From positions 24,452,187 to 24,516,186 of the forward strand of contig NC_049985.1 of assembly GCF_000003815.2 (NCBI RefSeq): a DNA stretch of 64,000 bases. The letters are read 5' to 3'. Position numbers and translations under genes: made by a program. Source of the DNA: Branchiostoma floridae (Eukaryota > Chordata > Leptocardii > Amphioxiformes > Branchiostomatidae). Shown here piece by piece: positions 4,261-57,549 of the stretch. The notes under the pieces are model-generated. The model saw nothing but the letters and a program-made list of their open reading frames with translations, was not told where the DNA came from and did no database searches. Positions within the stretch are counted from its first letter, which is position 1; every line of letters starts with the position of its first letter.

Positions 4261-4384
4261 GATTACGCAAATGTGGATAACTTTTTCACACAAACATCAT
4301 ATGCAATCTATATCTGGGGAGAAAAGGACATCAATAGAAATAGAGTATGGCAATTACAACCTTATTTCCATAAACATGGAAACA

Positions 4385-5464
4385 TGGCTCGGAGCGGGAA
4401 GGCATCAGGACCAGGTGGGCTGCCATCATGTCCTCCAAGATGTCCTCCTGTATGCCGTACGGCCGCAGGGTGGGGATCAGGTTGCTGCTGCCCATGTTAG
4501 CTTTCAGGATCTCCAGGCTTGCCTCATAGCCGTCCTCGCTGATGCCGCGGGTGATCAATCGCAGAGAGCGAGTCCAGATCTCTTGCGGCCATGCTGATGC
4601 CCCTTGCTGCCCCTTGGTTTCTTCTTTCCCTTGTACTTGGTCTTGAAGTGTTTGTAGATACGCGGACCCACTGAGAAAGCTGCCTTTGCGTTGTCGACGA
4701 TGTCAAGCATATCTTTCTCTTTCTCCGAAGCTTTGATAGCCCTCAGGCTCCCCCTGAAGTAGTCTGTGTCTTCAGGTAAGACGTGGGTGATCGTGATCAG
4801 GTCTGCCTGTTCGTAGTATGTTTCGCGCCGCCGTATCTGTGACGTGAGCATGGCCAATAACGACGTCAACATGTGGCGGTAGGTTCTCCTTCGGGTAGTA
4901 GGTCCGTTATTGAAAGGTCAGCCAGTCCAAGGATGGCTCTGTCTTGTCCCCTACTGCTTGACGGGGTTTGATCAGCTGGACACCATCTCTGTTTGCTGCC
5001 TCCTGGTCTTGTTTCGGCACACGCAGGGCTGTCGCGTACACGACTGCGTTAGTCGCGCCTATCGTTTGACCAACCTGACAGTTGATGGTAGAAATCCCCC
5101 CCTTGGAAGTTCCGTACTCGTCGTTGATCAACAAGATTATTGGTACTTCCGAACCTTTAGGAAAACAAAGGGGAACAGATGTTAAGTCCTGCTTGTATGC
5201 TCTATTCGATTCTATTAATTATCTATTCTGAATATTAAGAATTGCGTTTGATACCTGTCGGTAAACATGTGTAGTTGTCCTATTGTACATGTTAGGCACG
5301 ACAAAAGACGAGGGTTTTAAGACAGTTCAATAGAACCTCTTCAATATACATACTTAACTTTATTTACCGACCTTGAACAGGTGCGACTTGTACATCTCGA
5401 ACTTCCTCAGTTCCTTTATCTGCTGCTGAACCCTTCTCCTCCTGTCCTGCTCGTTTGGTTCCTT
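4385..5464 (-). pseudogene. Decayed GT-B type (GT1-like) glycosyltransferase gene
   Basis: An intact-looking exon (5464-5368, ending G|GTAAAT) splices in phase to 5154 (acceptor CCTAAAG), giving the N-terminal motif LLINDEYGTSKGGISTIN of a GT-B nucleotide-sugar glycosyltransferase. The frame then meets an in-frame TAA (4909-4907), continues as YYPKENLPPHVDVVIGHAH, shifts frame near 4825 to EQADLITITHVLPED, and shifts again near 4600 to ITRGISEDGYEASLEILKAN and finally MPSRSEP. MPSRSEP is the start of the sugar-nucleotide binding motif usually followed by FGL; here it stops at about 4385 in unrelated sequence. One stop, at least two frame breaks, internal loss and a lost C-terminus make this a pseudogene. 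Many lancelet proteins of this type exist; the exact substrate cannot be told. An assembly-error origin for all breaks is unlikely. Confidence 0.75.
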
Positions 5465-10837: not shown

Positions 10838-13800
10838 TTACGGCTTTAGTGAGACAGGGCCATATGCATGTTTATCAATCCAAAAATACTCACTTTGCCT
10901 GATCCAACGGTTCACAGAAAAGTCGTATGTCGGTCCGCTGTTGTCCGGGTTGAGTTGGACAGAGACGGACTCACAGTACCAGTCGTCATCAGGGTGGCAT
11001 CCATCCCGAAACAGCTCAATTTTCACAATAGGGGCAGCCACTTTTACATCCTTCAGTTTGTACCTGTGGAAACATAACAAGGAGGTATGCGATACTCAGG
11101 AGGCGGTAGTTAATCAGAATAGTTGCTACTACAAAACTTTTCAGAAAACTTTACAGAAATGTCCCTGAAATTCCAGAGCAAGCTGTTAGGAGGCCTGTGC
11201 AACATTTATTCCTTACATGAAATATCCACTTTTACCTCCATCAGTTTGTACTTGTGCACACATTACAAGGAGGTATGCGATACTCAGGAATAGGTAAAGG
11301 CGGTGGTAGTTAATCAGAGCAGTTGTTACTACAAAACCTTTCTTTACAGAAATATCCCTGCAATTCCAGAGCAAGCTGTTAGGAGACACCGTGCAACATT
11401 TATTCCTTACATGAAAAATCCACTTTTACGTCCTTCAGTTTTTGCCTGTAGACACATGGGCAGGGGGTATACATAATACTCAGGTTGTGCATTTATATTA
11501 GTAGATAATCAAAACAGAAACACCCCTACAGTTGTAGAGCAAGCTGCTAGGGGGCATACACGAGAAACCTTTGTCTTCACCACTCATATCTTTTTCAAGA
11601 TTTTGTAAATACTAGTACTTGCAAAAGGTAGAAATCTACTTACTGTCCCTCCTGTCCCTTTTCAAAGTCGTTTTTCCACCACACATCCAACTGCAGCTCA
11701 CGGGACTGGTGGCCTTTGTCGTCAAAGAGGCGGATGTAGACGTTTGAGTTTGTACCAGAGCCACTGTAAGTCCCGGTCTTCGTTTTGACGAGCACGTCAA
11801 TGTCATCAACATCATCTACTTCCTGGAAAATACAAGATTGTGAATTAGTTTCGTTATAAAGAGTTAAAGGGTAGGGCGAATGCTTTCAGTTTGCACCAGG
11901 CGCTGAATTGAATGAGCTTTTAATATAGGCTGGGCTAAGTTTTAATATCTCCACAAAGCGGCTGCGATTTAGCACTAAAGCTAAGGGCACAACCCGCCGT
12001 ACGTGCCATTTGTCCGTACATTTTGGGGAGGCCACGTCCGCCACGTATTTCTGAAAACGTTCAGGCTGTACAGGGCAGGCGCGTCGCTCATACTGGCACG
12101 TCCGGGGTCGAATCCGCAGCCCGATGGCACACAAGTTTTGCCTGCACGTAAAGTTCCACGGCGTGTCTGCGTGCTCCAAAATTCGCCGGATTCTGTACGA
12201 GTTCGTACGGAGGCGGCGCTTACCTCTTACGGATCCCAAAAGATTACCCACGTTTTGGCACGTAGACAGCACGTACTTGCACGTACGGCGGGTTGTGCAT
12301 GCCCTTAGCCTTACTCGGGTGACCTCAACGAGATACAGCCATAACCCTGTCTATTTTGTACCTAGTTGTTGCTAAAAGTGCGATCGATGACATCCACGCT
12401 GGTATCAATTTTCGGCCCGTTTAAAAACAAAAAGTTTTCCGTAAATATTACAAAACCACTGTTGAATGAGCACATATATGTCATTTTTTTTCAAATTTCT
12501 AAAAAAAATCGAATTACGGACACTCATGTCACATAATGCCAAAGTATATTCAAAAGTAAAAAAAGAAGATGTTAAAAGAGCAAAAAATGAAAGTGTATTG
12601 TTTATGTTACTTCACTCGTGTTCAGTCATTTGTTCAACCTTCCTGCTCACATAGCTTTCATGATGAAGGAAAGTTTTGTTGCCTATTCTGATACGCACGC
12701 TAGCATCGGTTACCAGAGGATATCATTAGGGGTGTGTAACGGTACGGTGTACCGGTACAAAACCGGTTTTTCTCTTTGGACCGGTCCCCCCCCCCCCAAA
12801 AAAAAAGCGGACCTGAAAAAATTCGGTGGACCTGATGTTGGACCTATTGGAAAATGAACAGATTATATGATCAGGCATTCACACGTTTTTGGGCTTACCG
12901 GTCGAAGAAAATAACAAGATCGTAGTAGAGTAGAGTGTACCGGTACCCACCCCTAGATATCATCTATAAAATCAAATCTACATTGGTAATTAAGGTAGAC
13001 TCCTTATAACTTACGTCAATGATGTCGCGGAAGTGGGATGGAAAGATCTCATTCAAGTCTTCAGGGTGTTGTACCCAGAATGACTTGATTTTCACTTCGT
13101 AGTCTGGTTGACTACCGCGGGTCATCTTCGTCCCTGTCCACACCGGCGGCTCCTGGAGTTCCCATCCGAAGAAGGTGTTGAAAATGGCGATGCTGCCTTT
13201 TAGTGCTGACAGCGAGACGTCTTTACCCGGGCACATGTGGTTGTTGACCGCGGGTGTGTCGGTGAGTCGTCCGTGAAAGATGACGTGGTGTTTCCGACGA
13301 GCGTCACCGTCCGGGCCGAGGAACCTTATTTTTTAAACAGAAATAATAATAATAATAATGATGATGATGATGATGATGTTTATTTTTTCAAAGCAAGAAC
13401 ATTAAAATATATTGCAGCGTCTAACAGCAGAAGACGCCGAATTGCGCACTTTATGCAAACATCGATACAATTACAATGGAATGTTATTAACATACAAGGA
13501 ATAAAATAACACCAAATCTTCTTATGATACAAAGTAGTGAAAGAAAACTGCAATGCATGTAGTTGATAAATTGATATGGGAGATGTTTTCAGGTACTTGT
13601 ATTCAGAAATTGCGTGAAATATGGGATGGGGCTGTTTTTATAGCGGTTACTTTTTGCCAAATAACATTGCCAAAAAGATGTTTGTGGCGTCGTTTGTGGC
13701 GTAACTGGTATACGTAGAGTGTTGGGCTCGGACCCAAGAGGTCTTGAGTTCGGTACTCGCCGTGCTCCCGACGTTGTACCTTTTTTTTATTTTTTTATTG

Positions 13801-16022
13801 AGATTCTCCATATACATATGGAGGGTATGGCGAAACAGGTGTCAAAGACGCCTTTTCAAAGCCACCATACCGTTGGCTTTGTTGTTCGGAGTTTCCATCT
13901 CCTAGGAGGACTTCCGACCAAGGATGCAAGGGGTTCCTCCTACCCCTGACTCGTGTGTCATGGCGGGTGCGTCATGCCCGAACATGCCCCCATGGCCTGT
14001 CACCACAACAAAGGCCGTGGAGTGTGATCTTGCCAAAGGCACTTTTCGCATTTAACACGTGTAAAACATGGTACCTAACTTCAGTCGGGGAAGTATAATA
14101 CTACTTTAACTTCCACCTTTACTTTGTATGTAGCACTAATAAAATAAGGTACTAACTCGAGTGCAGTGCCACATTGTTCACGTCTGCTGTCACAAAGCAA
14201 ATGGACGTAAAAAATTCAAACAAACGGACTGGAATCAAGTAGCAGCTCTCATCCTATGTATTTTGTACCATATATGTGTGAAAAGAAATATTTGTATAGA
14301 CATATTAGGATTTTAAATGCTATAAACTTTGTATTTTGTCAGACCCTTACCTTTTCATTCATGACCTCATTGAAAAACAGCCTGTGGGCCGATTTGGGCT
14401 TCTCGTCAATAAGGGTCAAACGAAACAGACAAACCTGCGCCACATGAAGTCTTCTGGTTTGTCGAAGACAGCAGGATCCCTCAGTGCCCAGTACGAGCTG
14501 GCATACACGCGCTCACCTTCCTTGATCTGGAAAGTGAGATGCAAAAAAAATGTGTAACTTGACAAGCTGCGCTTTTGGAAATGTATTCAACCTGCAATGA
14601 CTAGTGTGATCTAAAATGAGCTTTATATGTCTCACTTAATTTCCATGTCGATGACACAGACATGAGCCTACAGCCATACTGGTGTCCTTATTTGCATTTC
14701 AATGGCTCGAGAAGAATTTCATGAAAGAGATGAAAGTGTCTCGGCAGGTATACCAGGTTAAGATACCAGGCTTATTTAGAGCAGATTCTTTTCAAGTACA
14801 ATCAATATATTATTTAGGTCCAACGGTAGGCGCAAAGCCAATTTTCTGAGCAAGATCTTCTGGCCAATGACATCACGTGACACCAACATGGCGGCGGACA
14901 AAGCGATGACGTCACGTCATGGCGTCACGTCATTTGATTTAGTAGTTACCAACCTTCAGTGCGTGTTCTCCGCTCTCCGTGGTGTACTCCACAGTCGTTG
15001 GACGTGTAGCAATGGTGCTCCAAAACATTGGGCTTGGACAGGCCCGCAGTACTTCCAAGACGAAGCTTTCCATTTTCGGCATCTCCTCCAGGGACTCACG
15101 GGTCAGACCTCCATGTTTCTTCAGGGCAGCAAGCGCCTCCTCCCGTAGCTCCTCCCGGTCTTCTGCGCTGATGGTGTCCAAGCGGGCGAAGGACGACACA
15201 AGATTTGCTCTGATGCCAGCAACCCCGTTGAAGAATACCGGTAAGAGGAGTTGTGCCGTCGTCTCTGCTTCTCCCAACCCGTACGCATGACCAAGATCCA
15301 TCAGTTGCTGGTATCTTTGAATACAAATCAAATCATTAGAATCAATGTAAAATTCATGAAATTCGTCTGTATTTTAAAGAATTTGTAGAATATGGTTCTA
15401 ACCGCACAGGAAGTTAATATTAAACGGTCATCACCTACCTCTCTGATGTCTTTATCTTCCCAATGATCGACCTCACTGCCTGCCGTTCTTCGTCAAGGTT
15501 CTTACTTGTTAAAGCTTTCACGATGCACGATCTTACTTCAGTCGCCCCGATGATATAAAGACGAATATCTTCCGCATTAAAAGACGATGACTCCCCAAAG
15601 ATGTTAGGAAGTACGGTATCCGCTGCAACAGCCAACAACTTTGACTCGAAGTCGCTCATTGCTGTGCTGCCCCATTTAGAGATGTTGGACAATACAGACG
15701 ATGCGGTTGATGATGGAATGCCTTCGCCAGCCTTTGCGATCACTTCCATTAAAAACCCCTTGTTTTTCTCATGGATCTTGCCGTTGGACGAGACGCTTGG
15801 ACAAATGCCTTCAGTGAAATCCCGTCGGACTTCTGCCACGCCAAAACAAAATTCTTCCTTTTTGAAAAGTTCAATGTCAAAGACGGACTGCACGGCCTTG
15901 TTCCCGGTCACAACGCGACACGGAAAACCGATGTTTTTCTCCACGAAATCTTCTTCTCTATTTGGTTTCAACGCCTGGTTGCCCCATCCCAGCAATCTAA
16001 CAGTTCCCACTTGGTTGCCCAT
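10838..16022 (-). CDS. CYP74-clan cytochrome P450 fused to a C-terminal PLAT domain (583 aa, six exons)
   Basis: Exons read 16022-15439, 15314-14954, 14526-14435, 13324-13015, 11822-11644 and 11063-10838. All junctions are GT-AG and all phases agree (2,0,2,0,2). Residues 1-449 are a P450 of CYP74 type. The I-helix segment FFNGVAG (222-228) has Asn224 where CYP74 enzymes carry their catalytic Asn and lacks the monooxygenase AGxDT. ExxR is at 282-285, and the heme loop NNHMCPGKD has Cys377 as thiolate ligand, resembling plant CYP74 NKQCxGKD. No ER anchor is visible. Residues 450-583 are a PLAT domain (GSGTNSNVYIRLFDDKG, FEKGQEGQ, DDDWYCESVSV, NRWI). CYP74 enzymes convert lipoxygenase-made fatty-acid hydroperoxides to allene oxides or epoxyalcohols without O2 or a reductase; lancelet members (CYP440) are known. 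PLAT probably directs the protein to lipid or a partner. An acceptor at -11 before the ATG implies an upstream 5' UTR exon. Product specificity is not readable. Confidence 0.9.
11040..11580. repeat. Three tandem copies of the last exon's acceptor region
   Basis: The sequence around the exon 6 acceptor (plus strand CTTTTACATCCTTCAGTTTGT) recurs at about 11226 and 11425, with its following AT-rich tract, 'GAGCAAGCTGTTAGGAG' and 'ATTTATTCCTTACATGAAA'. Copies are about 185-200 bp long and increasingly diverged. The second and third carry decayed versions of the exon start. Confidence 0.75.
11979..12310. repeat. GC-rich foldback element in P450 intron 4
   Basis: Left arm GGCTAAGGGCACAACCCGCC (one base at the edge differs) pairs with right arm GGCGGGTTGTGCATGCCCTTAGCC, and CCGTACGTGC/GCACGTACGG extends the pairing. 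Size is about 330 bp. A GGTCGAATCC motif inside resembles a pol III B box, but no tRNA fold is evident. Confidence 0.7.
12727..12955. mobile_element. hAT-type MITE (229 bp)
   Basis: Ends TAGGGGTG and CACCCCTA form inverted repeats, with GGTACGGTGTACCGGTAC and GTACCGGTAC inside. The element is flanked on both sides by the identical 8-bp sequence GATATCAT, the 8-bp target duplication typical of hAT transposons. It lies in P450 intron 4, about 60 bases from the exon 4 donor, and encodes nothing. Confidence 0.88.
13343..13378. repeat. (AAT)n(GAT)n microsatellite
   Basis: Compound trinucleotide repeat in P450 intron 3, about 20 bases upstream of the exon 4 acceptor. Confidence 0.85.
13683..13795 (+). 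mobile_element. tRNA-derived SINE head with poly-T tract
   Basis: It contains an A-box-like TGGCGTAACTGG, a stem-loop TTGGG-CTCGGA-CCCAA in the anticodon-arm position, a B-box-like GAGTTCGGTACTC, and then a T-rich run. Arm spacing follows a tRNA but the acceptor stem is poor, so a SINE or tRNA pseudogene is more likely than a working tRNA. It lies in P450 intron 3. Confidence 0.5.
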
Positions 16023-25253: not shown

Positions 25254-27233
25254 TCACTCTTCATTTGTTGGACAACCCTCATACAAACTGCCCAAACCCT
25301 CCCTAGTGCTGCTACCATCAGATACCACGGTACTAATGTTTTCAGATTGCTGTTCATACAAACTATTTCTTGAAAGAGAACAGCTTGACATTTCGATTTG
25401 GTTCACGTCTACCGCACAGTGATGTTCCGTTGGGGCGTACATGCCTGAGGAAGAGATATGGCTCGTATTTGTGTCTTCATATATTGTATTCGCTTTTGCT
25501 GTTCCGTAAGGCATTACTTCTTCATCAGACTCAGCTGCAGCTTCTTCGATTTGAGACTCGGGTTGCCCAGATGCGTCTTCCAGCCGTATGTCTGTATTTT
25601 CAGAATGGTCTGCAGCCCCAGGGATGTCTTCATCGCTAGCCACAGGTAAATCTGGCGGTTCCGCAGAAGCGTAGATGTCATCCAGGCCCCACTCAGGGTC
25701 TTCAGGCGACAAGGATGCATCATCGTTACTGTACTGATGGGTTTCTGCCTGTGTAGTAAGGTCCGAGTCCGCAACGGGGGTTTGATTCACGCTCTGGGTA
25801 CAAGATTGTGCCTCTTCGACCAATTGAACACGTCGTAAGGAGACATTGTTCGGATCGAGTTCTTCCTTTGTTAGATGGTTTACTATATTGGCCACGGCAT
25901 GAATGTTGACAAAGGCAGACATAGCTTGTACTCCTACTTGCACGGTTGCACTAGCGGTGTGTGTTGTATTCATTTTTCCACTGGGCCGTTTTCGCAAAAC
26001 TACGAGGACAATAAGGATAAGCGCCAAAAGGAATAAAAGGAATATAGAAATTATAATGGCAATGATGGACAAAAGGTTGTGTCCACTTACGTCTTTGTTT
26101 GTTGAAGGAATGTTGCCAGTATCACAGAATCTTTGATGAATTGAGCCTGAGCGGAGTCCAGGTGAACAACAAGACTTGTTTGTAAAAGTGGAACAGTTAT
26201 ATACTTGTTTGTTTTTATCTGTTGTAGCATTTACAATCGTCGTTTGGTTTTGCCGTTTCTCACTTGGTTTCTTAACAGCACAAAATAGAAGATCGTATTT
26301 CGCTTTCCTGTCACCCTTGTCTGCTACAAAGCTGTATACACCGGAGTCTTTTGCTGAAAATTTCTTTATCGTGACGGCGTCATCAACAGATTCAAGGTTA
26401 AGTCGTCCAGTCGGGGTGATCCAATAATATGTGTCAGCATAACGTAACCGTCTGTACTGTAGAGCTGGCTGGGGTAAGTGAACGTCAATATTTTCATATA
26501 CGTAGCTGATCGGTAGGTGGATTCCGAAGTATTCAAAATTGCTTTTGATGAATAAATCTTTAGTGATAAAACTTCGATTATTTCTTATTTCGATTCGGTA
26601 ATAAAAGGTCACTAATGCCCTTTCATTTGAATATTGAATTTCAGCTGGACAATGCAAAGGGTTACCACGCAAATCGTAAGAAGTCTCTGGACGTAATGTT
26701 TTCGCATCTACTGGTATTTGACTGATGTTGTTCATTCTAAGCAATACAACGTAGAGATGCTTACTGGGGATTATCTTGATGGCTTGCATCGGAAATAAAG
26801 AAAGGCAGTTTCCTGAGAGTTCTAGGTACTCCAAGTTTGCCAAACTGTTAAAAGTGTTTTCTAATATGTGAGAAATGTAGTTATTTGAGAGGATGAGATT
26901 CGACAATGCCTGGAGTGCAGAAAACGTCAACTGACGAAGAGAAAGTATTTCATTTCTGTCCATATCAAGGTACAATAACACGTGAAGTCCTTTGAACGTT
27001 TCTGGCAACATAGTAGCCACCTTGTTGTTGTTTATAAAAAGGTATCGCATTTCAGGAGTTGTATTAAAAGAACCTAGGTGGGTTATTTTGTTATCTGACA
27101 ACCTCAGAGTGTGAGTGTCCGGAGTGATTGAGTCTATCGGGACGTGTGTTAAGTTTTGTCCCGTATAGTCAGCGGTTTTTCCAGAACTAGTGGTCAACAA
27201 AGTGAAGATGATGACGATAGCCATGGCTTTCAT
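25254..27233 (-). CDS. LRR and Ig-like type I membrane receptor (659 aa)
   Basis: The start MKAMAIV at 27233 is preferred over the Met at 27302 because a splice acceptor (CCCACAG) lies at 27276-27270 and a hydrophobic signal peptide follows (about 1-18). Leucine-rich repeats span about 38-190 (LRLSDNKI, LFINNNKV, LYLDMDRNEI, LILSNNYI, LELSGNCL). The usual four-Cys LRR caps are reduced. Residues about 205-320 look Ig-like (Trp271, DSGVY at 296-300), but the expected disulphide Cys are absent, Phe302 replacing one. A short Cys cluster (347-370) precedes the membrane helix (387-413) and a 246-residue acidic tail. The tail has seven tyrosines, including YSND at 501 (fits a Grb2-type YxN site) and Tyr521, 576, 585, 599, 626 and 651. 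The family is used in adhesion and immune recognition; ligand unknown. A 5' UTR exon ends at 28335. Confidence 0.88.
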   Translation of the reverse strand: MKAMAIVIIFTLLTTSSGKTADYTGQNLTHVPIDSITPDTHTLRLSDNKITHLGSFNTTPEMRYLFINNNKVATMLPETFKGLHVLLYLDMDRNEILSLRQLTFSALQALSNLILSNNYISHILENTFNSLANLEYLELSGNCLSLFPMQAIKIIPSKHLYVVLLRMNNISQIPVDAKTLRPETSYDLRGNPLHCPAEIQYSNERALVTFYYRIEIRNNRSFITKDLFIKSNFEYFGIHLPISYVYENIDVHLPQPALQYRRLRYADTYYWITPTGRLNLESVDDAVTIKKFSAKDSGVYSFVADKGDRKAKYDLLFCAVKKPSEKRQNQTTIVNATTDKNKQVYNCSTFTNKSCCSPGLRSGSIHQRFCDTGNIPSTNKDVSGHNLLSIIAIIISIFLLFLLALILIVLVVLRKRPSGKMNTTHTASATVQVGVQAMSAFVNIHAVANIVNHLTKEELDPNNVSLRRVQLVEEAQSCTQSVNQTPVADSDLTTQAETHQYSNDDASLSPEDPEWGLDDIYASAEPPDLPVASDEDIPGAADHSENTDIRLEDASGQPESQIEEAAAESDEEVMPYGTAKANTIYEDTNTSHISSSGMYAPTEHHCAVDVNQIEMSSCSLSRNSLYEQQSENISTVVSDGSSTREGLGSLYEGCPTNEE

Positions 27234-27299
27234 TTTGCGGAGTGACACAATAACTTGCTGTGAAACTCCCTGTGGGTAAAAACAAACGTACAATAACAG

Positions 27300-28334
27300 C
27301 AAATGTCACTGGGTAAATAGAGCGCTACAGAAACAGCCCAATTCCCTATCTAACTACTTTGCTAAATAACAGTATGCAGACATAGTGCATTCTATAAGTT
27401 GATTTGTAAATGAAAACCCCATCAAATTTTTAAATCTGTTAAATAGCCATGCATTGTATCAATCGCCAAAGTAAATTGTTCAAGATTAGGAAGCATTTAG
27501 AACGTTTTGATTATCTTATTGCTGTGAAGCATGTAAATAGTATTTAAATACTTTTAATCTTAAGCTGTAAATTTCATGTATAGTATTTTACCCATGGCCA
27601 GTTGTATTATTAATTGTATTTCCAACAGAATTTGACACTTTGTCTTTGATTCTCTTGTGAAAGGAGTGTACAATTCAGCCAAAAGGCTGTGAAATGCTTT
27701 TGTCAAATAAACCATTATTATAATACCTTCAATTGGGCGAAACAAAAAAGCATGAGCTTCATACAAATGTCTTCTTCTGCATGTGAAGTGTAGTAAAATA
27801 CATTCAATAGAAATTACATAGGTGCACGTTTAGAGAATTCGATCGACGATATACAGCAAAATACCTCCTACCCTCGTCCGTTACCAAAAATTTCTATTTT
27901 GGCACAAGCCAGTCTGTTCCATGAATACCTAAATTTTAACTATATTCTATTGCGTTTGCCTTTGTGCCTTTGCGTTTTGATGGGATACGTCAGACAATTT
28001 TAACACCCGCCAATAAGATGATACTTCCAAGAACGATTCAGTTACAGTTGAACTAAGTGAAAAAATTTTCCCATAATATTTCTTCGCCATTGGAAGGTAC
28101 AGAAAAGCAATGTCTTTTGTAGTTTCAGATATTGGCATGAAAAAGATCAACACTCGCGCGTGGTAATGGTTTCATGTCACTGTTTTCTTATAAACGCCAA
28201 GGCCTTGATTTTGATTGAAGATAGAAACAAGGCCCAAAATATCCATGTATTTGACGACGACATTTGCTACATTGACTTGAGTAAACAATTGAGGCTCAAG
28301 ACAATGTGCAAAATTGAGTAATGTCGAAACTTAC
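27300..28334 (-). other. Probable 5' UTR intron of the LRR/Ig-like gene
   Basis: The stretch runs between the donor at 28334 (CAG|GTAAGT) and the acceptor at 27270. It is AT-rich with no coding signal. Confidence 0.5.
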
Positions 28335-28400
28335 CTGACGTTAGAAGGCCCGAAAGCAGGTAAACCGAGCTGGAGCTTCTGAGTCTCTGTTCGCGAGGGA
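28335..28400 (-). other. Probable 5' UTR exon of the LRR/Ig-like gene
   Basis: A consensus donor CAG|GTAAGT follows a non-coding GC-richer stretch upstream of the coding exon. The upstream limit (transcription start) is not visible, so the start coordinate is approximate. Confidence 0.45.
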
Positions 28401-29109
28401 GCCTGGAAGAAACCAGTTTTTTCTCAAATGTCACGTGGTGATTTATTACAAAACAAGCTTCGTCATTGGTCAGTAATACTCGTACGACGGATAGTGGAAG
28501 AAAACCGCCTGGAAATTAGTCTGCCTTAACGGAAAGTGATTTTGGTGCAAAGACTGTATGAAAAAAAATAATAATGTAATTATAAATTATATGATCTTCG
28601 GTGAATAGCAATCATTTGATGGTGTGTGAAAGGAATTATTTTTTGATTGTCAATATAAACGTCCTTAATGTGACGCCATAACAACTGGTGAGGTTTCTTG
28701 TGTGATTTATTGACTTGACTGTACATGTGTAACTTCCATACTCAAATAGAGACGTATCTGTATACTACTACTAGGTAGAATCCAAAGTTGTATAGTTTGT
28801 ACTGTGTTCCAATACAGCAATAAAACACTCGCCATGAATTTTCGATTCATCTCGCCGACCTTTATCAGATGTCTGATTCACTGCGCTGATCGACTTTTCG
28901 GAAGTTGGAAATGTCATGACGTCAGGAGCGAATCAAAAGCGGAGGACCGGAAGACGGAATCTACCACTGTCACAGTTCAGTGGGGGTTGATGGGCCCTAA
29001 TATAGATTGTCTCTTTATTTAACGCTTGTCACAAAGTAGTCCATTTACTATTCAGCGGGTACATTTGTATATAATTATCAATCAGGTTACACTTAACCGT
29101 TGATACTAT
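28401..29109. other. Upstream flank of the LRR/Ig-like gene
   Basis: Probably holds the promoter; no recognisable core element or gene was found. Confidence 0.3.
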
Positions 29110-39070: not shown

Positions 39071-41691
39071 CTAGGAAAACAAACTGTCTTTTAGCAGCTC
39101 ATCACAAAGAAAGTTTGCCGCGTCATACAGCTTTAAATTGTGAAGGATTTCCAAAACCGTCTTCACGGTGTGCTTGTACATAGTATTACGGGTTTCAAGT
39201 ACACAGAACAGGGCCAATGATGGGCTGTTGACTGATCGCGTGTTCACGGACTCCAGGTCTTGGTTTGTAACGCCAAACTGCACGAAGAAGGTCCTCCATG
39301 TCGGTATGGAGCTGGCGTGTGTGGTAGTAGTGTCCAAAACCGCGGCTAACCTTTCTTGGATGTTGAAGCTGAACCAATCGTCTTCCAGCAAAATCGCTGA
39401 AAATGGAAAACAATTTGTCAACGTAGATTATTTAGTGTTCGTTCCATATCATGCCCATGATTGTGAGATAAATTAGCTACCCTAATCGAATCGATATAAA
39501 TTTGAGGAATAGCTTCCAAGTAAAACTTACACGATGCTCGATCTTTGCACCAAGCCAGCTTGATGGCGTAGTCATTTGCTGCGTTGTTGCGGCTGGCCCT
39601 GTGAATTATGGCCGTTTGTTCTGTGTAAAAAAATACAACATAACTATCTACACGCGTTTATCGTGTGTAGTTCAATTTATTTTCAGTAACACTTTTTTGT
39701 AGAAAGTTTGGTCTAAAAAAAGCAAAAATATCACAAATAACTATTTTGAAGTAATGTAAGCCAAAGGTGTTGGAAAGCCCTATACAAATATGTCCAAGGC
39801 ACGTCTACTTGAAATTCCAGGTCATTCTAGTGTGTACACTAGGGGTGGGTTGTTGAACAGGTCCAAAAATCATGCCATAACCACTGTTGATTTACTCCTG
39901 GCTTGTTTCCAACCTATCTATGACTAACTCCAAAGCCGCGAACAAATCTCTGCTAAGTCATTTCCAACTTTTAAGTGACTATTACCAGAATGACCTCGGA
40001 CCATCCACCCATGTATCTGTATCTGTAACTATATCTGTTAACAACATAGAGAAATTGATTATTTTGATACACTCTTTAGAAAATCACTTATTATCTTAAC
40101 ATTCGGTTGAGGATCAGTCAGAAGAGATTCAGCAAACAACTCAATATTTGCCTGACTTTTCATCTTGGTCAAATTCGTCTTCAGTTGCGATGGTTTCTCA
40201 ACAGATCTAGATCCTGTAAATTCATTACCTTCCAGTGTAGGGACTTCCTTCGGATCCGAAATAGGCCATTTTAACTTGCGGAGCTCCTCGTTCTCTTTCT
40301 TCAGGTCGCCATTGGTTTCCTGGAGTTGCTTGATTTTCTCGGTTGCCTTGCCAAGCCTGCCTTCCAAAGTAATGACATGTTTTGATTTAGCATTGCGGAG
40401 GTAGTCGATCTCACTTTTGAGATCTCTGTTGGTTGCCTGGAGCTGTTGGATTTCTCTGTTTTATTCAGCAAAACCTTCTGAAGAGATTCATCTTTCTTTT
40501 TGAGACGAGTTACTTCCTCGTGGAGACTGTTCACAATAGTCTCCTGAATCCCAGCATGGTGCTTTGCCATCTCAAGCCTCCCTTCCAAAGCTGTGACCTG
40601 TTGTGACTTCTGTCCCATCTTCTGACCGAGATGTCGGGTGACAGGATGGGCCGCACATTCTGAGAAACTTGAATCCTGAGAACTGGTGATAGCTAAACCC
40701 AGACCTTCTAGGGTAGGATTTTCGATGGTCTCTGCAGTACAAGAGTGCCCCAAGGTTGATAGGAAATCAACAGAAGTTCCTTTCAGAAACCCTGACAAAA
40801 CATTAAAAAAAACACAAAACTTAATGTATGAGAAATGCTGGACGCAACAAGTACGACGCAGGGCAAACTTAATTGTTTCTTTAACCAACTAAGGTAACGT
40901 TACTAATTAAAGTACCGTTGCTTTTGATTTGACTGAAGGATTTGAAACATACCTGGCAAAATGGTTTGTCTTGGGGCCGCCAAAGAATTATCAGTAGAGG
41001 GTGCTGGTCTCTGCTGGGTTGACTTATCACCTGGTGGGTAACAAAGACATGTGTTTATTACATGGTCCGCCCTTAGAAGGTCACAATATATTGGCGGATC
41101 GCCATCGTGCACATAGAATCAGAGCTAAGCGATCCACATAAACACCACTTATATATTAGCATATCACGCAATACTCTTATTTCACAAAAGCTTTTGATGA
41201 TGATGCCAAAGTCATTCATAGAATACTCACATAAAAACTGAGTTTTATTGAGTTCAAGGCTCTACACTAAATCGGTTAAAGACTTTTCTGACTACAAATA
41301 AGCAGACTATAGTGATAGAAGGCTCCAGGTAGAGTGGCGCGCGGGGTTCCACAAAGAAGAGCTATGGAACCATTACTATACCCTTTGTACATAAAAAATA
41401 ATCTACCAGATCAGCTTGGTCCAAGTTTAAGTTTATCTACACATGGCTGTCTATTGTCTATGAGAATTTTATCTACAAATAGTAATGCACAACTTCCGCA
41501 AGAAGATGTGGACGCCCCCTAAAAATATATTACACTATGTACATAACAAACCAAACCCCACATTTAATTGTAGGTGCGGCTGGTCATTTGAAGTAATATA
41601 CTTAGTAATCAGTTGCTGTTGCACAGTGTGCATGCGAATCTGCCGTATTACGCTTTACGGTTATATTGGCTACACCTTAATGCAGATACGG

Positions 41692-41778
<87 letters not shown>

Positions 41779-44153
41779 CAATGATTATTAATGTACCTAC
41801 CACAAACAAGCGAGCAGATCCTTTCAGAGAGTGCTGGGAGACTGTTCGAAATTTCCTGAGTGTTCACTCTCTGCGCGATGACTTTTCTTAACTCATATGA
41901 GAACTCTCTGACGAGATTTCCAAATGCCTTGAAACCATCATTGTTGTCGTCTAGCCAAATAGGGAAGATTTGTTTGTTGTTTTTAAGAGCCGCTTCCCAC
42001 TCTGCTCGGATCCATGTTTTGTTGCTTTGGAAGCAGTACTTGCTGACAACGAATATAAACAGTTTCATTGAAGGACTTTCTATGACTTTCATAATTCTGT
42101 CTAGCTTTTCGCCGGGTTGTAAAGAAATCTCGTCATAAAAGATTTGGTCCTTCTTTAGGCCGTCGGTGTCTAGACGATCGACAAGTTGCCGCACAAATGC
42201 TTTGTTTTCCCCAGCATGGCAGAGGAAGACAGTCTTGGCTGGTGGAGGAACAAAATAAAAACTTGATGAGCACAATTTTGAGCCCCATCCACTCTAAGTC
42301 ATGCACTACTCGCATGACTATCAGATTTTCACAGAATGATGTACACGTATTTTCATCGATTCGTTTTACTTTCAGGATACATGTATAGCCCCAAACAAAA
42401 GGGAAATTGACGAAACCGTTCCTTTCTTGGGTGTGACGAATTCAGAGTAACAAAAACCCGGTTATGCCTGAACTAACGATATCGTCCGACATCTTGGATT
42501 TGACCAAAGGCGTTATTGGAATAGCTAGTTATGAATAGTTAATTATGAAAGTTACATAAAGTTCCATAAGATTTAATTGCTGCACTCGGGTGGGTTAAGG
42601 CATATCAAGTGCTGGGTATGTTTTGTAAAAAAAATAATTCGAAAAGACTAGAAAGAAAGGAATAACAGACTTTCATGATTTTTGGTATGCTAGTAACTTA
42701 AACAAAGTTGTACAGAATGATATACAAATTATGAAAAATAGAAGGATAGTTGCATTGTAAATGCCATTGATAAAATTATATCATAGAACATTTTTTCATT
42801 ATATCTCCTGTCCTAGACATGATGTGGTCTTGGATTTGGGTGGCAGATAGATTTTGACAAAGTAGGTTAGGGCTCCCTAACATATTTTGCTTTTGATACG
42901 GCAAGGGCGTTTTTGTCAAAACATTTCAGAGGATATATAACGTTAACTGAAGAAAGGAATGGCAGATCATTTAGGCATAGATGAACACAACTAGATACAT
43001 ATCATGCAAATAATGATCTAATTTGCATAATTAATCAGAGAGCTTTATGATTCAATTGTTTTCCATAATTAGATATCAACAAATGTAACACATATAATCC
43101 AGAGCATGTGGAACAAGAACAGATACCAAATATGCAAATAAGGAACTGATTAGAATAATCAATGCAAAAATGCAAAAAAAGCTTAGTGATAATTTATGGG
43201 GCTTTTATACTTGTGGTATATGTAAATCAGTTGAAGTTGAATATCAACAGTCATTTGCGTAGAATGTACAAAGGTTCTTAATACCTGATGGAGGTATGTG
43301 GTCACCGAAATCTAGTTTATGGTTGTTTTTTTAACACAAATACGTGTAATGTACATGTAGAAGTCCATGTTTACATTTTATTATGAATTATGCAAATGAC
43401 CTAGGCCTGTACATTTACATATTCTATACATAGTGTGTACACCTTTTAAACAGACTTTCACAATGTCACAAGTAGGTAATTATGGCACTTTCCGATCAAT
43501 TACGCAAATTAATAAGATTGTCAGTATCTATTAATGTTAAAGCTTCATGTAGATTATATATATGTTACGTATATGAAAGTCTTAATGTGGAAAGTACACT
43601 TAACTGTTATCCTCATTAGTTATGCAAATTAAATCCCAATTTGTGTACTGTGCATGTCATTGTGTACATCTCTGTCTATACAACATATCTGTCTTTAAAA
43701 ATTCAAGACCATATCACATCCAGATCGAAAGCTACAAAACCAAAAGTTTTGCCGCAGGAACAAGGTCACAAACCATTAGGCCCAAAGCTAAGCTCGACCT
43801 TTATCCTCCTAACGCCTTCGAACGTACCAAATCTCATTGAAATTTATCCTTAGATTCAAAAGCAAACACACGGGCAGAAGACGAAAAGACACTACGTTTC
43901 TACACACAGAAACAGACACATCAGAAACAATGACTACCTTTTTCATGGAGGTAATTAGCACATCTAGTAATAGCCGTCCAGCTAGGCGCTAGGCGACATT
44001 GAAGTTAACATTATTGACGCAGGCCTCGCAATGCCCCCCCCCCACCTCCCCCCCCCCCCCCCCATACCGTGTGAACTAGGTTAATATGTACCGAAGAACT
44101 GTTGCTCGAACTTTCGAACTTAAGAAAAGTCTACCTTGAGGTAACGTAGCCAT
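39071..44153 (-). CDS. TIR - coiled coil - Death domain protein (about 504 aa, six exons, one frame break)
   Basis: Exons: 44153-44135 (ATG, ends phase 1; inferred), 42238-41801, 41030-40953, 40791-40229, 39620-39531 and 39396-39071; all junctions are GT-AG and phases fit. TIR is at about 8-152 (box 1 VFLCHAGENK, BB loop EISLQPGEK, IFPIWL, and WIRAE at 82-86). A linker (153-178) leads to a coiled coil (179-366) with repeated LEGRL, then a small exon. A Death domain follows at about 400-504 (WRTFFVQFGVTNQDLESVN, TVLEILHNLKLYDAAN). Such combinations act in Toll/IL-1-type or cell-death signalling in the cytosol, and lancelets have many. The order is the reverse of MyD88 (Death then TIR). In exon 4 the frame changes between LLNK and EIQQLQATNRDL; a one-base loss at AATAAAACAGAG would account for it and for the exon phase. 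Sequencing error or a real mutation cannot be separated here. Confidence 0.8.
41696..41776. repeat. (GA)n microsatellite
   Basis: About 40 GA units in intron 2 of the TIR-Death gene, 25 bases beyond the TIR exon donor. It makes spurious RE- and LS-repeat ORFs. Confidence 0.95.
42640..43960 (+). repeat. AT-rich dispersed repeat copies in TIR-Death intron 1
   Basis: 42640-43320 matches 32860-33552 ('CAGACTTTCATGATTTTTGG', 'TTTGCATAATTAAT', ending 'GGAGGTATGTGGTCACCGAA'). The next 640 bases are a further AT-rich segment ending TTTTTCATGGAGGTAATTAG. No coding capacity is seen. Confidence 0.55.
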
Positions 44154-49845: not shown

Positions 49846-52800
49846 TCAACCTACAGCTTTCCTCTTCAGCTTGTAACGATGCCCCTCTTGTACAGTCACC
49901 AGAATGTTATTGCCAATGTGGGCCAAACACTCCCCGACGTCATCAACGTCAACCCTGACTCGATTGTGCCCCTCGTCTAATGCATATTCGATCTTTAGAT
50001 TGGTGAGACGGTCAAACTCTACCTCAGTACCGTTGTCCACGTAAACCCACTTAACGATTCTGGCGATGAGCTGGGCGTGTTCCTGCTGCTTCCCCTCGTT
50101 CATCACGCGGGCCAGGATCTGGTGGATTTCGGACTGTAGAACCAGGATGTCCTCAGCAAGCCCCTGAGTAAAATGAAATGTCTACAAAGTCATACTACGC
50201 TACGATGCACAATATTCTCGTTACAAACTTTACGATAACGCTGTACTACGCTCGAAAAGGACATCAAAGTTTAAATTGGTCGAATTATCTAACGGTAGCC
50301 TCCATGTGACATTACATTTGTTTCTTCGTCAGCTTGAGGTAACTAGCTGGAGTGTATCTAATCACCGCTCAAAAAAAGATCGAATTTGATACCTGAAGGC
50401 GGATCTTCTTCCCGTCATTGCAGATCTCCATGTAGACGTCACGTTCTAACGCCTTCTGCTGAATGGTCGCGACATCGTCATCTGTCAGCCGTGCTTGTCG
50501 GTGATGTCGTGAGTTTTGCTCTCTCTGTTGGCGGTCTCGCGGATCTTGTTGGTCGCAAACTCTACGTCCTCCTTACAGCCCGCGTAGATGTCGAGCAAAA
50601 CCTCTGGCTTCTGTGGTTTAGGTGGGGGTGGTTTGGTCGGTTCCTGGCGTATTGTCTTTACCAGATTCTTCACTCCTGAAAATAATTATTTCGTTTTTCT
50701 ATTACATTGGGAAGACAGTCAGTTATCATTAATTAAATGATATTTGCTTTGAAGTGTTTAGCCCCATCGAAATGTCTGTTTAGGTATTTTTTATGCTGTT
50801 TATCATACCAACTCTAACCAACCACACAGCTAACTACATTTATACAATTACCAAGAAGCGAGAGGAAGTCGAATGTCCTAGAATAGGTTAGAAGTATATA
50901 TACATATACAGATGTGTATGATTGTTCTCCATTGTTTACATGTTTAAGATTGTTTCCATGTGACCTGTACTTAGCCCAGTAGGGCAAAAACGTGCAATAA
51001 AGGTCTTCATTCATTCATTAATAAATATTACGCAACGCAAGAAATGCCGAGACAGTGTGGGGTCAAGCGATGTTAATATCACATAGCGCTGTGTAGAGGA
51101 GGAGGTCGGTCTAAAAGACAACAACTTGCTAGCCGCCATGCTAGATAGAGATGCATGGTCAGACATCGTTAATGGCACCTCATATGAGGATGAACTGAAG
51201 TGAACTGACTGAGCGCTGTGTAGGTGGTGTTGTAGTGCGTGTGTTGGCTCCATTTTCATGGAGGTAAAAAATGGTCAAGATCTGACAGTACCTTCAGTAA
51301 CTGGAGCAGTGCAAGATGATGTTGGATCCATTAAGGATCCAGTCCCTGCAACAATATCCGTATGCTTACCAAGCTCGGACAAAAAAGCCTAAAAATATAA
51401 ACATCACAATCGTTTATTAACGTAGCCAACAGAATAAAAGAAGTCAACAGCAGCGTGCTAAAACGGCCAATGTAATTTAGATTATTTTGATTGATTAATT
51501 GACTGAATGGCATTACAATTAATGTGCCTACCTCAAAATTTAGCTGATCGTAGACCACAAACTTGGCCTTTTCCAGATCACCTGCCGGGTTGTTCCTGCT
51601 GTGTGACAGTGTTTCCTCAAACATCAGGCGGGCGACGACGTCCTTAGGATAACCCAGACCTCCCGTACCGACGGCGGGGAAGGCGATGGTGCGTTCGCTG
51701 TCTTTGTCCGCATGTTTCAGACATGTTGACATTATTTTGCGTAAAGCCTAAGGAATCGTGAAACAGTTACAAACGAATGCAATCGTTATTGCTGTGGCAC
51801 ATGGATTAATCATATATACAGAGTTACAATAAAACTAAAAAGGCCGAAATTTGCTTGAGAGCAAATACAGAATATTTCAGCCATCTCCCTCCCCATGCAA
51901 CAATAGAATATTCCAAAATCACCCATGTGCAAAAATTGGAACACTTTTGTTTAAAAGTCACCTCTACTAATGACACTTTTGCCCCAAAAGAATTTTACAA
52001 TCTTCCAGAGCACCCCATGTGAATGTGCATAATAGACCAGTCCAGAAATACTCCCAATGAAAACATGGCCTTTTGATTAAACAACCCAGTCCAAAGTTGA
52101 ACTAAGCAAAAATGCATGGAAAATAGACCAGTCTAAAAACACTTCCGCTAAAAATGGAATTTTAAATCATCACCAAATCAAAACTGAATTTATGAAAATA
52201 TCCCCCTCCGTCCAAGAGTGGACTCTTCCTGTGATACCCCTATGTAAGATGGACCAGTGCAAAAAAACATCCGCTAAAATAGGACTTTGACATAATCATA
52301 GAAGTCCAAAAATTATTTTTAAATGACTACCTCCCTGCAAGAATAAACTCTTCCAGCATATCCCATGTAAAATTGCAAAGTAGATCAGTGCAAAAATGAT
52401 CCGACTGAAAGACTTTACAAAATCACTAGTCCAAAGATAAATTTAAAAAGGATTAACCCCTCCGTGCAGGAATGGACTCTTCCAGATAACAACAGGCTCG
52501 CTGATTGGCTGCCGAATCCTCAGGCAAAGCGAATGGTTGCCAAATAAGTTTTTAATTAAGTTATATAGACATGTAGAAGTGCAGTCTGCAGATGGGGGTC
52601 AACGACCTTGAGGTCATTTACCTCCCTGGCTATTGGAAAAAGACAAAAAAATCCCCTAATATATCATTCTGGTTTATGCCAAAAATTATACATGGGTCAT
52701 TTGAATAAATATCTAGAGCACCCATTCACCAAATGCCAGGTTATTTGGTTGTAAAACGAGGGTACAGGAGCCAAAATTGTACCCTTTGCCAAAACTGAAT

Positions 52801-53282
52801 TTGAATTTATGGGGTCATATGATCAAAGCACATCTGTACCAAATTTCAGGTCATTTGGCTGTAATACCAGGGTGAGCCAAAATATACATAAAAATTGACA
52901 AAAACCTCAATAAAATTATTTTAAAGGCAGATGTGAAAAAAATGGAGAAAAAATGCCTAAGGGTATTGGTCCACTCTACCCTTGTGCCAAATTTCAGGTC
53001 ATTCAGTCGAGGAACGCCGGAGATAGCGTGTTTTGAAGATTTGACAGGAGAAGAAGAAGAAACATTACGAATACAATATATTTCACCATACCAATGGTAT
53101 GGCTGTAAAGGAAAGGAAGTGAAATGACTTACGTCCTGAGACTTTACACTGTCCTGTGAGTTCCAGAAAGGGCACACGGCGTGGTACACAAGCTTGCATC
53201 CCAGAGTTCCCCCCGATGTTTTCACAACTTCTCCATAAGCTGGAACCCGTCCGAGATCTCTTTTAATCTTGTCGCATTCCAC
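49846..53282 (-). CDS. PARP14-like macro domain and WWE protein, 5' end missing, one frame break
   Basis: Exons 53282-53133, 51747-51532, 51388-51370, 51345-51292, 50675-50393 and 50163-49846 have GT-AG ends and matching phases. The first two give the second half of a macro domain (GEVVKTSGGTLGCKLVYHAV; IAFPAVGTGGLGYPKDVVAR), the ADP-ribose binding fold. The next carry a Pro-rich linker (TKPPPPKP) and a KH-like segment (DDDVATIQQKALERDVYMEI). The last encodes a WWE-type domain (IVKWVYVDNGTEVEFDRLTN). This order matches PARP14/15-type mono-ADP-ribosyltransferases, linked to antiviral responses in vertebrates. No catalytic domain follows before TGA at 49848; either it is lost, or the final exon is spliced at AGCT|GTAGGT to something not seen. 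In exon 50675-50393 the frame changes near AACAGAGAGAGC (about 50518); the exon is one base short for its phase. The upstream half of the macro domain was not located. Confidence 0.78.
51838..53105. repeat. Long dispersed repeat, copy 2, filling a macro-domain intron
   Basis: Collinear with 45828-47290 with scattered substitutions and deletions. It occupies nearly the whole intron between the two macro-domain exons (53132-51748), ending 28 bases from the exon donor. Confidence 0.8.
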
Positions 53283-53333: not shown

Positions 53334-54201
53334 AATATATTCCCACTCACGTTGCCTCAGTGGAGAGTTAAGGACTGGGGTGAGAAGACCGAGGCATCGT
53401 GGAATCCGAGATTCCATGCTTACCCGTACAATACTTAGGGGGGCTTCTAAAAATTTGACTGCACTTCTTTCCCGTGCTCCCCCCATCTACTAATATCCTC
53501 TTCAGCAGAAAAGGTGAAGAATTGCTCCGAAACTTGATATCATGTGTTGCGCTCTGTTGTTCAGATATAACACAGAAAAGACACCTACACTTGAACAGAA
53601 CTTTATTGCCCGACAATTGTACATGATATGGCAACTATTATTACACAAAGTACCAAATGACTGACACTCGGTTTTATTCCGACTGCTGTACCACATGAGA
53701 AACAGCCATACACTCTTTGTGTCTGGCGGTAGGCTGTTCCAGACATTGGGCCCACGGTAGGCTATTGATCTTCTGAAGGTCTCTCGCTTAGGCTTTGGGA
53801 CAACCAGTTGACTACTTGCTTTGGTTGTTCGTGTACTCTGGTCCCTGCAGTACACAAACATCTAGCGCATGTAGGGTGGTAGTTGCATATAACTTCGGAG
53901 CTTTGGATAATCCACAAAGATCGGAGATATCCCTCTGGTGAAAAACGGCTACACTAGAAACCTACATTGCCTCTGACCGTGGACTGTAGCTAGACTAGTC
54001 TACTCTTGCTAGGCTGTGTCCCTCCCGTCCGGCTCATGATTCACTTGTGAATAGAGGGGGAGTTATATCACATGTCATAAACTCACGCGAGTGGAGATCT
54101 CGCGAGAGTTCATTCCATTGTGATATCATTGGGAATCATAATATATTCCCACTCACGTTGCCTCAGTGGAGAGTTAAGGACTGGGGTGAGAAGACCTCGG
54201 C
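53334..54201. repeat. 64-bp direct repeat pair flanking a LINE scrap
   Basis: 'ATAATATATTCCCACTCACG...GGGGTGAGAAGACC' occurs at about 53334-53397 and 54137-54200 with no visible difference over about 60 bases. Confidence 0.8.
53500..53930 (-). pseudogene. LINE reverse-transcriptase C-terminal fragment
   Basis: In the minus direction: LRSYMQLPPYMR, an in-frame stop, then TRTTKASSQLVVPKPKRE, FRRSIAYRGPNVWNSLPP. The STR...LVVP-RxSxxYRGxxxWNSLP pattern is the extreme C-terminus of many non-LTR RTs. It is truncated and interrupted. Confidence 0.7.
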
Positions 54202-54209
54202 ACCCGCTT

Positions 54210-55369
54210 CTCCCGAGTGCCATTATTCCCCTAATTTAAGTTCCTACATTTCCCTTCATTTAATCCTCTCCCAATCCTTATTCTTCTCCATTCCCTTTTC
54301 CCAATCCTTATTGTCTTCATTCCCCCAATCCCTTATATTTACTCCCTCACCTCTGTGCCTTTCCGTACAAAACCCTCTACGTATGCATTAAGCCACCTTG
54401 ACAACACAGCAGCATCCCCTATGGTCTGCTGCGCATGCTTGTTGTTATCAACAGGGTGGGTGTAAGACTATCACAGTCACAGTCATCAGTCTTTAGGTGT
54501 TCCTCAGGAATGCAGATTGATCCCTGGTTCTCAGCTAAGTTCATTGGGCGCCTAAGGTCCGGCTCGAGTGGGACCTGTCCAATCCGAACTCAGGGGAATG
54601 GTCGACGACCAGTCCGATTAGATAGAGAGCCCTTAGAGATTACCTGAGACCAACCTCTCCCAGGTTTACAGTAGTTCAACTCATCCTGCGTCGTGTTGGA
54701 AATCAAACATTGATTTCTCTGCGTATACAAGAACAATATTCCAGCTGCAGAGAAAGCTATCACCACAATGCTTGCTCAGTATCTAACCTGTAACTGTCGA
54801 CCTTTACGCACAGTTCTATGTATTTCAGTCTGGACAGGCCCCACTCGCTTCCCGGACCACCAGGCCGAAGCCAGTATGGGTGGCAACAGCTTAAGGGAGC
54901 TGAACACGGTCCACGAGTGAGAACTAGGCCAGCTAAAGGTAGCCAATAAACAGGAACACAGAAAATCCAATGGTAGGAAGGAATGTGACACGAGAAACTC
55001 GTCATGATCTTTGTCTTTATTCCAAACTTGCATAACAAGAAACGCAAACACCGGTTCAGTCAACGGTAAAATCACCATCCAACATTACCGTGCAGACGCT
55101 GCGGACCTTATCGAAAATTGCATGTCGTCCAAGGTCACAATCTAATTGTGACAATCGAAGTTCCATTGTTCCCATTGTGTCCTCCATTCCTTTGACCTTT
55201 ACTTCTGACCTGTCCAACAAGGTAGGTCTTCACTGTACTACCGTACGGTCTTGTTACCTACCATGGATTTGTTCACCAACCATGCAACAAACCAAACAAA
55301 ATCTGAGGTTGTCCAACAACCTGTCGTCATATCAAATGAAACACCGACTCAAATCAAACAAAGTTACGA
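54210..55369. other. Intergenic DNA, nothing firmly recognised
   Basis: A CT-rich stretch (54225-54380) and overlapping short ORFs without domains. No gene is supported. Confidence 0.35.
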
Positions 55370-56855: not shown

Positions 56856-56939
56856 TAACCAATTAAAACATTAAATCGATCGACGATCCTCAGTCATACA
56901 GAGTCAAAACCTAAAGTTTCCCCACAAAAGTTACGTCCT

Positions 56940-57545: not shown

Positions 57546-57549
57546 ACTG

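Follow-up and report, generated by a model that had tools for sequence, protein, structure and literature searches.

Does a lancelet genome encode a cytochrome P450 that carries the docking domain of a lipoxygenase? The question is raised by a 64,000-nucleotide stretch of the Branchiostoma floridae genome (assembly GCF_000003815.2, contig NC_049985.1, positions 24,452,187 to 24,516,186; C7:24452187-24516186 in our notation), hereafter the window, in which a preliminary description had placed a CYP74-type P450 running directly into a PLAT domain. We rebuilt the gene from its splice signals on the minus strand, using our own spliced-alignment script as a check, and searched the 513,431,437 bases of the same assembly for relatives. 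The join is found again in sister genes, so the fusion looks real, and on the genomic sequence we conclude that it is real at the gene level. The reading we favor, with a probability of roughly three in four, is that a CYP440-like hydroperoxide isomerase of the CYP74 clan gained the PLAT exons of a lipoxygenase by exon shuffling, and that PLAT would bring the P450 to membranes.

Gene structure, domains and recurrence of the fusion

The six exons with matched phases proposed earlier were re-derived independently from the minus-strand splice signals, and the script returned the same seven exons when fed the window protein as a self-test (Table 1). The 583-residue frame first described holds to residue 565; beyond this point it overruns the exon 6 donor (10894) into the intron, where it reads ...RQSEYFWIDKHAYGPVSLKP and finishes at 10838. 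A 3' end at 10838 was rejected because exon 7 is conserved, with its stop, in all five fused loci; exon 7 is the likelier true 3' end on sequence grounds and extends the protein to 588 residues. Counterparts of exons 3 and 4 are not separated by an intron in spliced alignments of three paralogues (L039, L041 and L043).

The protein contains two Pfam families, both above cut-off: p450 at residues 249-358 (E 2.5e-11; 43.5 bits versus 22.8) and PLAT (PF01477) at residues 460-567 (E 2.1e-20; 74 bits versus 23), the latter spanning profile positions 2-112 of 117. No further family was matched at E up to 1, including the lipoxygenase catalytic domain (PF00305), and the stop follows directly after the PLAT linker. 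Of the solved structures, those of plant CYP74A allene oxide synthase (PDB 2rcm, 2rch, 3dam) match the P450 part best (73-75.5 bits), the next P450 being prostacyclin synthase at 22.7 bits; no gap interrupts the alignment to CYP74A between the beginning of the heme loop and the heme Cys. The PLAT part finds no counterpart in these plant chains; its top PDB matches are the coral allene oxide synthase-lipoxygenase (2fnq, 3dy5), which ranks best, and 11R-lipoxygenase. The domain content is thus as described, a CYP74-clan P450 in frame with PLAT. The catalytic residues also lie where they had been placed: I-helix Asn224 (FFNGVAG), conserved in seven of seven close models, ExxR 282-285 with E282 and R285, and Cys377. 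In the PLAT part, the GTN, W.NDFE and DW positions, candidate sites of calcium and membrane binding, align with those of coral lipoxygenases. No membrane anchor is evident by eye in the N-terminus (MGNQVGTVRLLGWGNQALKPNREED). All six models with an ATG start (window 16022-16005, L039, L040, L041, L043, L044) open with MGN or MGS, and Gly2 and Gly6 are conserved among them; this could be an N-myristoylation signal and hence a second membrane tether. A collection of bacterial and archaeal sequences returned 157 pattern matches and no confirmed relative.

Going by the motifs quoted in PMC8124189 and the lancelet origin, the P450 is probably CYP440-like. CYP440A1 (BfEAS, B. floridae) and CYP440A18 (BbEAS/AOS, B. 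belcheri) are likewise CYP74-clan P450s with an I-helix Asn, an ERR triad and a heme Cys, whereas CYP440A18 has 458 residues and five exons and, in the main text of that paper, is described without PLAT (PMC8124189). The same source gives 71% identity and 76% query coverage for the 458-residue B. belcheri protein against the query BfEAS (PMC8124189). Because this coverage equals a 449-residue P450 part out of 588 residues, BfEAS probably has about 590 residues and carries a PLAT tail; it may be the window gene or a paralogue. The term PLAT does not occur in the main text of PMC8124189 or PMC10813956, and no paper describing a P450-PLAT protein was found, by titles and abstract starts, among the matches listed from open-licence PubMed Central. 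The earlier remark, that its author knew of no described P450-PLAT protein, is to be read with caution in view of the probable tail of BfEAS, and the architecture is possibly present unremarked in databases.

Searching the genome with the P450 part gave 41 matches (48 of 48 candidates scored), with the window PLAT part 38 (56 of 56) and with the PLAT family at least 84 (150 of 248 candidates scored). Grouped by hand, the close P450 matches form seven gene loci and an exon-1 fragment at C12:74287. Looking for the same C-terminus in related lancelet P450s, as had been suggested, disclosed within this genome three further complete fusions (L039, L040, L041) together with the separated pair L042/L048, which is either a disrupted copy or a gene interrupted by a very long intron. 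The P450 parts are 71-82% identical to the window's. The start of exon 5 in L041, part of which the script had missed, was placed by comparison with L039 and by its acceptor CAG. In the four complete loci no stop interrupts the spliced frame where exons 4 and 5 meet. P450 precedes PLAT on one strand in five loci, four of them with short introns and one with 22.6 kb between the halves, so the fusion is more than a chance arrangement. L043 and L044 are P450 genes without a complete PLAT nearby. By coordinates, and among the matches listed, no PLAT adjoins the more distant CYP74-like matches (25-41% identity), which lie on C16, C9, C1 and C8 and, as a single exon, at C7:19.79 Mb.

Both parts are under purifying selection. 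By the Nei-Gojobori method, the ratio of non-synonymous to synonymous divergence (dN/dS) stayed below 0.35 in all 10 pairs of the five fused genes, with L042 and L048 counted as one (P450 part 0.15-0.29, PLAT part 0.10-0.33). Five of the 10 pairs were tested further, and all five showed fewer non-synonymous PLAT changes than expected under a non-synonymous share that we fixed at 0.76 (binomial p 0.015 to 9e-7; the pairs share branches). Chance PLAT-like exons lying downstream were rejected as an explanation on the recurrence at five loci, this selection and the missing start codons described below. As a separate observation, L055 (C15:2016600-2018400) is a solitary first PLAT exon that contains an in-frame stop and shares 85% identity with its counterpart in the window. 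This relic lies on the opposite strand to the L041 gene, about 6.5 kb away.

Lipoxygenase origin and history of the PLAT module

Lipoxygenase searches of the genome returned at least 48 matches (66 of 78 candidates scored), and several PLAT matches are followed downstream on the same strand by lipoxygenase exons, a pairing made by position and strand rather than by joined gene models (Table 1). The nearest of these, L049 (C19:472.8 kb), shares 70% identity with the window PLAT over 133 residues including the linker, with the same two intron positions and phases, and continues RAEEMTIMRERFASVTPAPGLLPW at the point where the P450-PLAT protein stops. Extended in this way, L049 aligns with human 5-lipoxygenase past PLAT to residue 160 of chain 3o8y, and eight of the nine PDB rows matched at E up to 1 are lipoxygenases. 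The first PLAT intron has the same phase in all seven modelled lipoxygenase-type PLATs (L045, L046, L047, L049, L052, L053, L054); a second exon of 170 nt with the same phase after it is found in L046, L049, L052, L053, L054 and the fused genes, L045 and L047 being left out of this comparison as their models end early or shift at the second exon. PLAT is N-terminal in animal lipoxygenases, whereas it lies C-terminally behind the P450 in the window protein.

A PLAT tree was built from 17 rows, leaving out the partial row L050 and with L001 and L002 as the only other PLAT proteins. The five fused PLATs cluster (91/86), joined next by the partial L051 (80/49) and then by L049 (90/88); they nest inside other lipoxygenase-type PLATs, with L049 as the nearest full-length neighbor. 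Sequence identity, this moderately supported tree, shared intron positions and phases and the shared linker support the view, in line with the preliminary description, that the PLAT tail is a lipoxygenase N-terminus. A non-lipoxygenase source was rejected: the fused PLATs fall among rows with downstream lipoxygenase exons, except L047, in a tree whose other PLAT proteins amount to two rows. Two loci are recorded here in their own right. L047 (C19:934988-935610) is a lipoxygenase-type PLAT exon pair without a neighboring lipoxygenase match among the matches listed. At L051 (C3:15262800-15264900; match C3:15264563), the first PLAT exon strongly resembles those of the fused genes (EMAEVNGIDVLVKTKTG...); the 2.1 kb read showed neither a second nor a third exon convincingly, and no neighboring lipoxygenase match was seen among the matches listed.

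The fused genes fall into two P450 clades, window/L040/L042 and L039/L041. Between window and L039, synonymous differences number 20/86 in PLAT versus 152/304 in the P450 (Fisher p 8e-6), and the same deficit in PLAT exons holds across clades (p 4e-7 to 1.8e-5; five of six pairs computed), whereas none of the four within-clade pairs shows a significant difference (p 0.054-0.41). Cross-clade introns are partly alignable in the PLAT part and hardly so in the P450 part. The nucleotide tree of the PLAT exons keeps the same two clades apart (99/99). The cross-clade deficit, its non-significance within clades and the clade-keeping PLAT tree together indicate that the PLAT part was probably exchanged or homogenised after the two P450 clades split but before either branched further; the deficit could also reflect synonymous sites under stronger constraint.

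The module also appears to have been lost. The C12 gene L043 has the same exon 4 donor as the window gene and, about 0.6 kb past exon 4, an exon-7 relic with its acceptor (a 79-nt match, 86% identical to the window and including intron flank); the 5.5 kb downstream, of which 200 bases are N, yielded neither exon 5 nor exon 6. Splicing exon 4 to this relic would yield a 456-residue P450 ending LITCD. Primitive absence of PLAT at L043 was rejected on account of the relic. At the C10 gene L044, the 5.0 kb downstream hold no PLAT match. B. belcheri CYP440A18, with its 458 residues and five exons, may have arisen by the same kind of loss as L043.

Proposed function and competing explanations

In the proposed mechanism, the P450 is a predicted fatty-acid-hydroperoxide isomerase, an epoxyalcohol and/or allene oxide synthase. 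Exons encoding the PLAT of an animal lipoxygenase would have been acquired through exon shuffling, leaving the fused gene to stop where a lipoxygenase would continue to its catalytic domain. With no N-terminal anchor seen by eye, the P450 would be brought to membranes by PLAT, probably with calcium, and the hydroperoxide would be handed over locally at membranes used by lipoxygenases with closely related PLATs. Animal P450s are normally held in the endoplasmic reticulum or mitochondria; docking through a domain borrowed from a lipoxygenase, if true, would represent a different way of placing an animal P450. It would also offer a natural test of whether a shared PLAT is sufficient for coupling between a lipoxygenase and the enzyme that follows it, and since the same join exists in sister genes, coupling of the lipoxygenase and P450 steps can be tested. 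Such coupling has so far been approached through coral fusions and plant enzyme complexes (PMC6627107).

Several published properties bear on these steps. Lancelet CYP440 enzymes convert fatty-acid hydroperoxides into epoxyalcohols, with CYP440A18 also giving allene oxide products (PMC8124189, PMC10813956). Lipoxygenase PLATs are implicated in membrane association, sometimes with calcium; calcium control is not universal, and the activity of coral 11R-lipoxygenase depends on calcium and membrane (PMC7436259). Plant allene oxide synthase is located in the plastid, the Arabidopsis enzyme acts in complex with 13-lipoxygenase, and roles in membrane binding and domain interaction are ascribed to the C2 module of the coral 8R-lipoxygenase-allene oxide synthase (PMC6627107). 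PLAT is probably not needed for catalysis as such, because one sister gene lost it and a 458-residue lancelet CYP440 was published as active. A further-reaching version, which we put forward tentatively and at somewhat less than an even chance, is that substrate access in this lancelet P450 family is switched by calcium-dependent docking on the lipid surface of the feeding lipoxygenase; the module would have been captured from a lipoxygenase, passed or homogenised between two P450 clades and lost in others, one of them the PLAT-less B. belcheri type.

The coral enzyme cited earlier as an analogue also unites a hydroperoxide-processing heme domain and a lipoxygenase PLAT in one chain. The analogy stands to that extent but is looser than it was made to appear: the coral heme domain is catalase-related and fused to a complete lipoxygenase, whereas the window protein joins a P450 to PLAT only. 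Fungal dioxygenase-P450 fusions combine a P450 hydroperoxide-processing domain with another oxylipin module in one chain, the partner being a heme dioxygenase and not PLAT.

The main alternative, rather unlikely in our judgment, keeps the fusion and gives PLAT a mainly allosteric or stabilising role, docked on the P450 as a lipoxygenase PLAT docks on its catalytic domain via a conserved Trp. All five fused PLATs retain the RW(I/V) Trp, which pairs in the alignment with its counterpart in 11R-lipoxygenase (3vf1). In 11R-lipoxygenase, the conserved PLAT Trp, W107, sits at the catalytic-domain interface (PMC7436259), and by its numbering the fused-gene Trp would be its equivalent. Lipoxygenase helix 2, the coupling partner of this Trp, is however absent here, and the P450-only paralogue and the published 458-residue enzyme suggest that the P450 works alone.

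An improbable explanation is that two neighboring genes are present: a P450 that terminates within intron 4, 16 residues beyond exon 4, and downstream of it an independent PLAT gene or a lipoxygenase relic. In its favor, the frame of a retained intron 4 continues through VSYKESTLITNVDLIL before it meets a stop, the L042 and L048 halves are widely separated, L043 has a P450 with a mere PLAT relic, the published BbCYP440A18 has 458 residues (PMC8124189), and the first PLAT exon of L039 offers one possible start. That the PLAT exons are joined only to a different gene, the outcome named at the outset as refuting a fusion, is unlikely, however, because no in-frame ATG occurs from the upstream stop to the end of the first PLAT exon in four of five loci; the window's PLAT part contains no Met at all. 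The stop-free frame across exons 4 and 5 in the four complete loci, the persistence of the join despite P450 divergence and the purifying selection on the PLAT exons likewise speak against two genes. Least probable is a roleless by-product of gene shuffling, with PLAT exons merely carried along: the missing PLAT core of L043, the missing start ATG of L042 and the lone, stop-containing exon at L055 would fit it, but the low dN/dS of PLAT in 10 of 10 pairs and a frame open to a terminal stop in five of five loci do not.

Several points weigh against the favored account of a P450 that gained a lipoxygenase PLAT. The gene and its fusion are known here from DNA. The L042 and L048 halves lie 22.6 kb apart, with the intervening sequence covered except for 13.5 kb, and L042 has ATT in place of a start codon. 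L039 has a possible in-frame ATG as the second codon of its PLAT exon, where L041 has Leu. The PLAT calcium ligands were judged from alignment. On the question of origin, L049 is taken as a lipoxygenase from two exons that lie 6-9.5 kb downstream and match at E 4.4e-4 and 6.1e-6. Support in the tree is moderate and its outgroup rows sit on long branches; 1 of 14 inner branches carries a star, and L051, a partial row, falls between L049 and the fused PLATs (80/49). Two tree labels are also affected: 'LOX_L047' is unproven, with no lipoxygenase match near L047 among the matches listed, and 'OUT_L005' is wrong or unproven, as lipoxygenase matches (C7:588814, 589790) lie 6 kb downstream and L005 is probably itself a lipoxygenase PLAT.

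Feature coordinates and neighboring genes

Table 1. The window gene (window positions), related P450 loci, and PLAT matches with lipoxygenase exons downstream (genome positions).
Feature	Position	Strand	Description
Complete P450-PLAT gene	16022-10251	(-)	7 exons, 1767 nt, 588 aa + stop
Exon 1	16022-15439	(-)	P450 N-terminal part, begins MGNQVG; paralogous exons match
Exon 2	15314-14954	(-)	P450 I-helix region; Asn224 codon 15229-15227; ExxR 282-285
Exon 3	14526-14435	(-)	P450
Exon 4	13324-13015	(-)	Heme-binding region; Cys377 codon 13233-13231; 3' phase-0 donor GAC/GTAAGT (exon/intron)
Exon 5	11822-11644	(-)	First PLAT exon; no in-frame ATG in exon or upstream to stop
Exon 6	11063-10894	(-)	Second PLAT exon, 170 nt; same length in L046, L049, L052, L053, L054
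Exon 7	10321-10251	(-)	PLAT end, linker (NDHVWLSPGG...), stop; genome-search match C7:24462440-24462514
L039	C15:3.13 Mb		Complete P450-PLAT gene, 594 aa; spliced alignment
L040	C15:15.74 Mb		Complete P450-PLAT gene, 589 aa; spliced alignment
L041	C15:2.02 Mb		Complete P450-PLAT gene, 594 aa; spliced alignment, exon 5 start set by hand
L042 and L048	C15:3.10 Mb and C15:3.07 Mb	Same strand	P450 exons (L042) and PLAT exons (L048), 22.6 kb apart
L043	C12		P450 gene, complete PLAT not nearby; spliced alignment
L044	C10		P450 gene, complete PLAT not nearby; spliced alignment
PLAT (L049)	C19:472803-473364	Same strand	Lipoxygenase exons 479385-482888 downstream
PLAT	C19:739979	Same strand	Lipoxygenase exons 747764-756991 downstream
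PLAT	C14:4892	Same strand	Lipoxygenase exons 26397-28899 downstream
PLAT	C14:45356	Same strand	Lipoxygenase exons 53623-57818 downstream
PLAT	C4:6422776	Same strand	Lipoxygenase exon 6409850 downstream
PLAT	C4:24322646	Same strand	Lipoxygenase exon 24314055 downstream
PLAT	C13:8682427	Same strand	Lipoxygenase exons 8677322-8674940 downstream
PLAT	C12:9291894	Same strand	Lipoxygenase exons 9296101-9298184 downstream

Elsewhere in the window, Pfam matches mark further features on the minus strand. Positions 25254-27305 hold a leucine-rich-repeat receptor-like open frame of 683 residues (LRR_8), and 39071-42293 contain Death-domain (39071-39427) and TIR-domain (41670-42293) exons of one or more innate-immunity-type genes. 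Two Macro-domain exons and a sub-cut-off WWE-like exon at 49846-53282 resemble PARP14. At 4331-4917, two overlapping frames are like PF20706, a conflict-system glycosyltransferase family, with 32.9 and 24.1 bits against a cut-off of 26.
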